From Candidatus Eisenbacteria bacterium (GTDB lineage: Bacteria; Eisenbacteria; RBG-16-71-46; SZUA-252), in contig VBOZ01000012.1 in NCBI GenBank assembly GCA_005893305.1, positions 9,139 to 73,138 of the forward strand: a stretch of 64,000 bases of DNA, written 5' to 3'. Position 1 is the stretch's first letter, and the number at the start of each line of letters is the position of its first letter. Shown piece after piece: positions 39,601-41,376 of the stretch. A model generated the notes under the pieces. The model was not told where the DNA came from. It searched no databases and saw only the letters and a program-made list of their open reading frames with translations. Position numbers and translations under genes: made by a program.

Positions 39601-41040
39601 TCACCCTCGGCCGAGACACATCAAGGCAGCCCGCATCCGTTCCTCCAACGTGACGCCATGAAGGTTCGCTGCAATCGCCGCTGCGCGACGTGCCTGGTCG
39701 GCTCGGCATCCGAGGTTTTGTAATCCAGCCAACACGTCGCGGACCTGCCCCCGGGCAGCGCACTCCTTCTCCAACGCTGCACGCTCCCTGGCATCGGTCC
39801 CTTCCAACATGCCCCGGGGCATGTTGAGCGCGGCCCGCGCCCGTGCTTCCGCCACGTTCCGCGCCCGTGATTCCGCTACGTTCCGCGCCCGTGATTCCGC
39901 CGCCGCGAGTCGCGCCTCATGACGCTTCTGGCTCATGAACCCCGCCCCGAACATGCGCTCCGCCTCGTACTGATTGTGCGCGCGGCAGCGGAGCCGCATC
40001 CCCTCTACCGTGGCCCGTCCCCCTCGCGCCACCGGGTCGATATGATCGAACTCGAGCAATCGCCGCGACTCGCAGCGGTGGCCCGCCGCACCGACGAAGG
40101 TGCATTGGCCCTGGTCCCGCTCCCAGACGGCACGCCGGACCTGCGCCGGGATGTAGCGGTCGCGGGCGGGCGCTCCCCGCCGGGAAGGAACCCGCTGCCT
40201 CGAGTGCTGGCGCGTTCCGGCTGCGGGGAGTGCAGTCGGTTCGGGGGCGGTCAGCTTCGGCCGCCGGCGAGTGCCGGCCCCGACCTTTCGTTTCTCGAGG
40301 TCAACGATCAGGGCATCGAGTGCCCGGTCGAGCACCTGAGCGACATCCCTCGACGGAACGGCATGGCTGAGCAAGTCCTGGGCGTAGCGGAGCTTGTCCC
40401 GCGTGCTCTTCCCGATCGTGAGCTTGAGAAAGAAACTCTCGGCCGTAGCGGAGACCTCCGCGTGCGAATCGCCAACATGCCCCAGGGCATGTGCGGGGTC
40501 GACGCCGCCGCCAGCCGTGAAAGCGTCACCATCAACATGCCCCGGGGCATGTTGATGTAGGACATCTCCTACATGCGCTGGCACACACTCGGGGACGACG
40601 ACCGGGATGGCACCCACCATCGCCGGCAGTCCCAGCTTCGGGAAGAGGCGGGCCAGCAGTTCCTCGATCTCGGCCTTCCGCCGATGGGTCGCCGCCTCCA
40701 TCAGCCATTCGGCGCTCTCCACCGTTAGATGCGGAGCCAAGAGGCATACCGCGGCCAGGTGTAGCCGCCCGTCAGCCAGCGCGTCGAACAAGGCCGGGAA
40801 CTGCCGAGCGGCCCGGGCCGCCTGGATCCGCTTCGAGGCCGCGTCCTCGGACAAGCGCAGCTCCCCGACACAGTAGGCATGCATGGAGGGGTAGCCTGCC
40901 GGCGCGTACAGCCGCCGTGCATCGACCTCGGCGATATGGGCGAGGACCACGGCCGTGGTCACGCGATCGTGGGCGATGAGCGCCGCCAGATCGCTAAGGA
41001 GAACGGTGTCGCTGAGATGGGTCAACGAGAAGTCGCGCAT
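39601..41040 (-). CDS. DUF222/13E12-like HNH endonuclease
   Basis: A 479-residue protein with an N-terminal helical region (LSDLAALIAHDRVTTAVVLAHIAEVDARRL, then LRLSEDAASKRIQAARAARQFP) typical of DUF222/13E12-family proteins. The C-terminal HNH nuclease domain at about 310-370 has RRAVWERDQGQCTF, LEFDHIDPVARGG and MRLRCRAHNQYEAE; the catalytic His and metal ligands are present. A HNH motif implies Mg-dependent DNA cleavage, but the biological target is unknown. Three copies of a palindrome sit inside the reading frame, two in the central linker and one near the C-terminus, plus a 24-bp tandem repeat encoding ESRARNVA. ATG 41040 is the start. Confidence 0.85.
   Translation of the reverse strand: MRDFSLTHLSDTVLLSDLAALIAHDRVTTAVVLAHIAEVDARRLYAPAGYPSMHAYCVGELRLSEDAASKRIQAARAARQFPALFDALADGRLHLAAVCLLAPHLTVESAEWLMEAATHRRKAEIEELLARLFPKLGLPAMVGAIPVVVPECVPAHVGDVLHQHAPGHVDGDAFTAGGGVDPAHALGHVGDSHAEVSATAESFFLKLTIGKSTRDKLRYAQDLLSHAVPSRDVAQVLDRALDALIVDLEKRKVGAGTRRRPKLTAPEPTALPAAGTRQHSRQRVPSRRGAPARDRYIPAQVRRAVWERDQGQCTFVGAAGHRCESRRLLEFDHIDPVARGGRATVEGMRLRCRAHNQYEAERMFGAGFMSQKRHEARLAAAESRARNVAESRARNVAEARARAALNMPRGMLEGTDARERAALEKECAARGQVRDVLAGLQNLGCRADQARRAAAIAANLHGVTLEERMRAALMCLGRG
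39805..39826. repeat. Perfect 22-nt palindrome inside the HNH gene, copy A
   Basis: CAACATGCCCC followed by its exact inverse complement. On the minus strand it is read as NMPRGML, a different frame from copies B and C. Confidence 0.95.
39851..39898. repeat. 24-bp tandem repeat in the HNH gene
   Basis: Two adjacent 24-bp units differing at one base (GCCACGTTCCGCG.. and GCTACGTTCCGCG..), with a partial third unit upstream at 39833-39850. They encode two ESRARNVA repeats in an Arg/Ala-rich helix. Confidence 0.93.
40473..40494. repeat. Imperfect palindrome inside the HNH gene, copy B
   Basis: Matches the 22-nt palindrome at 19 of 22 positions (central G to A, and the last TTG reads TGC). On the minus strand it encodes HALGHVG. 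Confidence 0.9.
40530..40557. repeat. Perfect 28-nt palindrome inside the HNH gene, copy C
   Basis: The 22-nt core CAACATGCCCC plus inverse at 40533-40554 extends by three more paired bases on each side. On the minus strand it encodes QHAPGHVD. Confidence 0.95.
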
Positions 41041-41376
41041 GAGAACACCTGCTCACGGGGCATCTCCTTCAAACTGCCTGGATCACAAACCAGGCTTTGA
41101 TGGGGGTGCTCGTTTTATATCACGACACATTTCGTCGGCCGCAGAGGCTCGCAGCGCACGCGTGGGAGGGCAGGGAGTCTTTTGCGATTCCGGGTTCAGA
41201 ATCGCTCTCGCTGTGACACGCACGGGGATGTGCCGGTGCCTCCGGTTGGGGCCGCGGAAGTTCGGTGATGTGACCTCCAAAACCCGTCAACAAAATTCTT
41301 CGTGTCCTGCTGAAGAATTTAGAAAATTCCTCGTCCTCTTCTCGAATCCACGACGTTCGGGTAGGATCCCGGCTCC
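41041..41376. other. Intergenic region, HNH / methyltransferase divergent gap
   Basis: No credible gene. Near the HNH start it holds CGGGGCATCT (41056-41065), close to one arm of the palindrome found inside that gene, and an AT-richer part at 41285-41330 with a 9-bp inverted repeat. It must contain the promoters of both divergent genes; I see no clear -35/-10 pair. Confidence 0.6.
41293..41320. promoter_or_regulatory. 9-bp inverted repeat upstream of the methyltransferase gene
   Basis: AAATTCTTC, 10 nt, then GAAGAATTT, a perfect inverted repeat in an AT-rich patch 57 nt before ATG 41377. It may be an operator or a hairpin. Confidence 0.5.

Follow-up and report, generated by a model that had tools for sequence, protein, structure and literature searches.

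The 64-kb stretch of Candidatus Eisenbacteria DNA analysed here (the window) contains the gene for a protein with a helix-turn-helix (HTH) region and an HNH nuclease domain, and palindromes lie within its reading frame (Table 1). The second copy of this gene in the genome, on C33, is 83% identical to the window gene.

Table 1. Features of the HTH-HNH gene and its palindromes in the window.
Feature	Position	Strand	Remarks
HTH-HNH protein gene, 479 aa	39601..41040	-	ORF and weak Pfam HNH match; one of two copies in the genome
N-terminal helical domain, residues 1-140	40621..41040	-	ParB/Noc-like, weakly DUF222-like; AlphaFold2 model, modest confidence
Helix-turn-helix, residues 61-80; recognition helix 65-80	40801..40860	-	Secondary structure; contains three covarying residues
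Residue 66 codon (Asp)	40843..40845	-	Covaries with N3, z 12.4, top column
Residue 69 codon (Ser)	40834..40836	-	Covaries with N1, z 10.8, top column
Residue 73 codon (Gln)	40822..40824	-	Covaries with N2, z 7.8, top column
Middle domain, residues ~205-260	40261..40428	-	Ribbon-helix-helix-like by eye in alignment; putative domain name
HNH nuclease domain, residues ~295-365	39946..40158	-	Pfam HNH; C313, C323, D332, H333, C352, H355 near-invariant
Upstream region of copied unit	41041..41290	-	TTGAC at 41286-41290; GTGATATAAA box closer to start codon
Linker palindrome copy 1, perfect, 28 nt	40530..40557		20-bp core AACATGCCCCGGGGCATGTT; read QHAPGHV
Linker palindrome copy 2, 19/22	40473..40494		Centre CpG changed to CA/TG; read HALGHV
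Third palindrome copy, perfect, 22 nt	39805..39826		Within C-terminal in-frame insertion, homologues lack the insertion; read NMPRGML
Imperfect inverted repeat ATGTAGGA(GATG)TCCTACAT	40555..40574		Directly beside linker palindrome; also in second gene copy

The AlphaFold2 model of the N-terminal domain had a pLDDT of 67, and its top Foldseek matches were Noc and ParB (probability 0.91, TM 0.50, E 1.1). Nearly all of its best PDB fold matches were Noc or ParB structures, some of them solved with palindromic DNA, although this modelled resemblance is suggestive only. In the HTH region, the model placed helices at residues 53-59 and 65-80. The match of the N-terminal domain to DUF222 (E 0.0057, 16.4 bits) fell below the Pfam cut-off of 24.4, a PDB sequence search with the protein returned nothing usable, and the Pfam matches included an HNH domain instead of a CTP-binding domain of the ParB/Noc kind. 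The zinc-binding and catalytic residues of the HNH domain were conserved across the family, and the Pfam match was above cut-off in two homologues (L033 and L045). The central Asn of the HNH domain was replaced by Gly (residue 347, positions 40000-40002) in the window copy, a change that 15 of the roughly 60 aligned copies show, and the activity of these copies may differ. One HNH homologue (L035 768-2081, minus strand) carried a RuvA C-terminal-like domain at its C-terminus (PF07499, E 9e-6); RuvA was also matched by the full-length model.

The three palindromes that the original prediction had placed in the HNH reading frame were all recovered with their positions and lengths, and their readings (HAPGHV and HALGHV in the linker, NMPRGML for the third copy) were correct. 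With up to three mismatches allowed, the 64-kb sequence held three matches compared with 0.01 expected from dinucleotide shuffles, far above chance. Pattern searches of the whole 2.75-Mb draft genome found the 18-mer core exactly five times, twice in the window gene, twice in its paralogue on C33 and once inside kdsB, while a reversed control pattern was much rarer; the window gene has one further core copy with a single mismatch. Among 84,980 species genomes, the exact 20-mer AACATGCCCCGGGGCATGTT occurred in 13 stretches, 11 of them from Candidatus Eisenbacteria MAGs and two from Streptomyces (L036 2766 and L039 2654); the latter lie in apparently the same ORF context in both genomes and are possibly due to chance. 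The exact palindrome was not found in viral contigs (IMG/VR), nor did we find it mentioned in the literature. Other repeats adjoin the palindromes: three tandem 24-nt repeats (39835-39906) lie beside the third copy in the same C-terminal insertion, and at another locus (L010 2802-2836) an additional imperfect inverted repeat, ACATGCGC-CA-GCGCATGT, borders the linker palindrome.

The sequence CAACATGCCCCGGGGCATGTTG belongs to a family of palindromes of the form AAC-N1N2N3-CCCC·GGGG-N'N'N'-GTT. The HNH family itself is multicopy in the phylum: it was present in 30 of the 49 genomes searched, with up to 23 matches per genome, and absent from the other 19, most of which belong to the same class (most genomes compared were draft MAGs). 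Most full-length paralogues carried a palindrome at the same place, at gene nucleotides ~440-600, within the linker that joins the N-terminal HTH domain to the remainder of the protein. We fetched 60 paralogue loci irrespective of palindromes as a blind set, and of the 55 genes scored, 40 had a linker palindrome with at least 9 of 10 paired positions in phase, compared with 0 of 50 when a control segment from these genes was scored; a clear palindrome was missing in 15. Perfect 20-bp palindromes numbered 31 in 27 kb of linker versus none in 160 kb of flanking sequence, and up to five copies were found in a single gene. The cores differed among paralogues, yet the frame was retained and the dyad kept at the DNA level. 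For instance, two siblings from one genome (L101 and L102) had three palindromes each at matching places, and all three cores differed in concert; the flanks around them were only moderately similar. Outside the phylum, three close paralogues in G222 contained a perfect 22-bp linker palindrome. A distant HNH homologue (L272, in G283) had a 29-nt linker palindrome, AAATTTACCGCCGC-G-GCGGCGGTAAATTT. No plasmid or phage homologues of the HNH protein were found, and anti-phage defence models gave no match.

The strong linker copies were nearly all in one reading phase, encoding Q-[LH]-[AS]-P-[GE]-x-V, in which residue x (Q, R, P, H, T, K or I) tracked the codon of the opposite arm, even at the third, synonymous position of Leu codons. 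It is therefore the DNA dyad that is conserved and not the peptide. Resampling of synonymous codons gave 3.5 palindromes (at least 9/10) expected against 72 observed, which, together with the changes of x (Q, R, P) alongside the synonymous Leu base, bears out the earlier claim that protein constraint does not explain the shared DNA sequence. The arm mismatches comprised 12 of the G-U and 20 of the A-C type and thus bore no signature of RNA pairing; since an excess of G-U was absent, we rejected the reading of the palindrome as an RNA hairpin.

When palindrome type was compared with local protein similarity, a single sharp peak was found outside the linker, at residues 61-75. Among about 340 alignment columns, residues 69, 73 and 66 ranked top for N1, N2 and N3, respectively, and the same was true in the blind set alone. 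At N3, Asp66 was paired with G in 48/48 cases and Gln66 with T in 8/8. At N1, Tyr or Phe at residue 69 went with T (31/35), Ser or Ala with A (15/16), Cys with C (3/3) and Lys with G (2/2), and at N2, Arg73 went with G (15/20) and Gln73 with T (22/29); exceptions exist, such as Phe69 with A and Arg73 with C. A rule fixed before further genes were fetched was correct in 43 of 55 cases on 24 unseen genes (null 27.9, p<1e-4). Similarly, a homologue from outside the phylum (in G164) with D66, Y69 and Q73 carried a TCG palindrome, matching the prediction of the rule. On a tree constructed without the HTH and the linker, Pagel tests supported the dependence at N3 (p 1.5e-6), N1 (p 5e-8 and 2e-9) and N2 (p 9e-6), whereas three mismatched controls gave p values of 0.03-0.57. 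Furthermore, N2 and N2' are spaced 11 bp apart, one turn of the DNA helix, a spacing that would place two recognition helices on the same DNA face. The covariation between HTH and palindrome, the performance of the rule and the tree-controlled tests together make it most likely that a dimer of the protein binds the palindrome within the gene that encodes it, giving strong sequence-based support to the suggestion in the original prediction that these are sites bound by the protein itself. Residue 122 (40675-40677 in the window) also covaried with a palindrome base, C6 of the half-site (z 10.6; K/R with C, N/Q with G), and is a possible second DNA contact. The strand of the putative ribbon-helix-helix was rejected as a specificity element, as its residues do not track the core.

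Palindromes were also found outside the HNH genes. The pattern AACNNGCCCCGGGGCNNGTT, with its inner bases left free, occurred at 66 sites among 79 genomes, and 65 of these were palindromic at the free NN positions. Such sites were present in 16 of the 30 genomes with the HNH family but in none of the 19 without it (Fisher 4e-5), so that all 16 genomes with sites carry the family. Of the copies in G001 and G004, both close relatives, the majority lay outside HNH genes. The locations were intergenic, often near gene ends, or in arrays with AT-rich spacers, or in frame within genes, and in these two genomes and that of the window the dispersed types were mostly those of the resident HNH genes. 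Perfect in-frame copies were found inside kdsB, queA and a HAD hydrolase gene. The kdsB copy, in the genome of the window, lies in an insertion of ~45 nt that is missing from 29 relatives, at a loop whose length varies anyway; queA of G001 (L171 1258-2595, minus strand) has ~60 extra residues with three perfect palindromes and one imperfect one. The comparison made earlier with in-gene palindromic elements such as those of Rickettsia is therefore apt as regards in-frame insertion, but the elements described here are ~20-28 nt long and tied to HNH genes, and hence are not of that kind. In G004 (L183, L187 and L192), arrays consist of GC-rich palindromes, of two types, that alternate with AT-rich TTAATATATATTA-like spacers, and in two genomes the sequence TTGACATAATC immediately precedes dispersed palindromes (L163 27-56, L174 and L188).

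Most pairs of paralogues at different loci shared homology from ~150-235 nt before the ATG to the stop codon or nearby and no further, as expected of a copied unit. Neither the promoter region of the gene nor the sequence immediately following it contained an own-type site, an argument against a promoter operator of the ordinary kind, and no operator or terminal repeats were found at the gene ends. The upstream CGGGGCATCT, previously proposed as a related site, did not hold up, since own-type sites upstream of 49 HNH genes were no commoner than sites of other genes' types.

We propose that the HNH protein recognizes the palindrome as its cognate DNA target and that its own gene carries this target, in frame, within the linker. 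A dimer would read it through the ParB/Noc-like HTH, with residues 69, 73 and 66 contacting N1, N2 and N3 of each half-site, and the paralogues would have split into types as recognition helix and palindrome changed together. The perfect copies outside HNH genes would be the same targets after their spread across the genome; as no frame of the common types contains a stop codon, genes would tolerate them. The HNH domain may nick or cut at or near bound palindromes, and new copies of the short palindrome, as well as of the ~1.6-kb unit containing the HNH gene, might then be placed elsewhere by repair. The outcome would be a selfish pair resembling a REPtron, with an HTH-HNH enzyme as its basis. 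We put the probability of this whole explanation, from self-target and HTH code to dispersed targets and spread through cutting and repair, at roughly 0.7 on the comparative evidence. A self-cutting nuclease would harm its host unless cutting were regulated or limited to nicking.

It is possible, if rather unlikely, that the palindrome is an intragenic operator, bound by the protein only for autorepression as a roadblock, with the HNH domain serving otherwise and the dispersed copies being ordinary regulatory sites. Intragenic operators are known in other systems, self-binding is supported by the covariation and the tests described above, and the site lies at a fixed place downstream of the promoter. 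Against this reading stand the lack of own-type sites near the promoter, the copies within kdsB, queA and the HAD gene, and the presence of up to five copies in one gene, and regulation does not require diversification inside one genome. We consider it improbable that the system serves chromosome organisation, with a ParB/Noc-like protein that acts in segregation or occlusion by marking dispersed parS/NBS-like sites, of which its own gene contains one. In B. subtilis, a parS is located within spo0J. The best fold matches of the modelled domain were indeed Noc and ParB, which act on palindromic sites, and specificity in ParB/Noc is set by four interface residues (PMC7383237), but many paralogues of differing specificity occur in one genome, the protein has an HNH domain with no CTPase domain seen, and 19 of the 49 genomes searched, the greater part of the same class, lack the family.

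The remaining alternatives are contradicted by the covariation. The in-frame copies in kdsB, queA and the HNH genes, along with the dispersed copies, could be mobile palindromes like those of Rickettsia that landed in HNH genes by chance, unconnected to the protein; this is very improbable, given that the palindromes are confined to genomes with the HNH family and obey a recognition code. Even harder to credit is a neutral correction of quasi-palindromes by template switching, which would keep the arms symmetric without function and explain why they change in concert, yet cannot give rise to base-to-residue covariation and leaves the restriction to the linker of one gene family unaccounted for. 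Least credible of all is selection for an mRNA hairpin at the domain boundary, where it would pause translation or stabilize the RNA. Pairing as RNA is possible and the palindrome is located between domains, but the mismatches show no G-U excess, intergenic copies occur, and covariation with HTH residues is not predicted by, and contradicts, such a role.

Returning to the self-target explanation, we think it fairly likely that these genes represent a new class of system, either selfish or self-regulating, comprising multicopy HTH-HNH nucleases, most of whose genes carry a translated linker palindrome read by the product through an amino-acid-to-base code, with targets that spread even in frame into housekeeping genes. 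As reader and target reside in one gene and would have diversified together many times, the natural sequences would spell out a recognition code of three residues and three bases, a protein-DNA code that is testable and reusable. The system would provide a concrete enzyme candidate for the spread of short palindromes into coding sequences, a question open since the Rickettsia palindromic elements, and would assign a likely DNA target to a large HNH protein family of unknown function, in a poorly known phylum of soil bacteria.

Several known systems share features with the one proposed. HNH homing endonucleases likewise combine an HNH nuclease with a long specific site and gene copies at several loci, but here it is the endonuclease gene itself, and not an empty allele, that contains the intact site, and there is no intron or intein. 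We know of no intragenic cognate palindrome in the DUF222/HNH REP13E12 family of mycobacteria. The likeness to that family (mentioned in PMC10589994) lies in the multicopy HNH genes and the weak DUF222 match. In the ParB-parS and Noc-NBS systems, a dimeric HTH protein binds a palindrome of 14-16 bp and few residues set the specificity (PMC7383237); the reading head of the HNH protein may be of this kind, given the modelled fold, in contrast to the attached nuclease, the CTPase domain that was not seen and the many paralogues with different sites in one genome. Rickettsia palindromic elements, which are ~100-150 bp long, encode a conserved in-frame peptide and, in the review describing them (PMC10969869), have no link to an enzyme, resemble the present palindromes in their in-frame insertion into unrelated housekeeping genes, here kdsB and queA. 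Unlike them, the palindromes described here are ~20-28 nt long, stop-free in several frames, tied to HNH genes and read in different phases (NMPRGML and HAPGHV).

The closest parallel is with the REPtrons of REP sequences and TnpA-REP (RAYT), in which short dispersed palindromes of several types co-evolve with a cognate enzyme (PMC8266576, PMC2817692), and the covariation reported here points to such co-evolution of palindrome and enzyme, though with a different enzyme. RAYT is an HUH/Y1 enzyme acting on single-stranded hairpins, whereas the protein here is of the HTH-HNH type, and REP palindromes are extragenic, whereas many of those found here lie inside their own ORF and other ORFs (HNH genes, kdsB, queA). 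No recurring tag like the GTAG/CGTC foot of REP was seen beside the copies inspected by eye. The Y1 transposase (PF01797) was found in single copies in several f8 genomes and was absent from G000-G007, which include the genomes richest in palindromes. Because the enzyme class differs, the Y1 transposase is missing in G000-G007 and many of the palindromes are intragenic, the system works like a REPtron but is not one.
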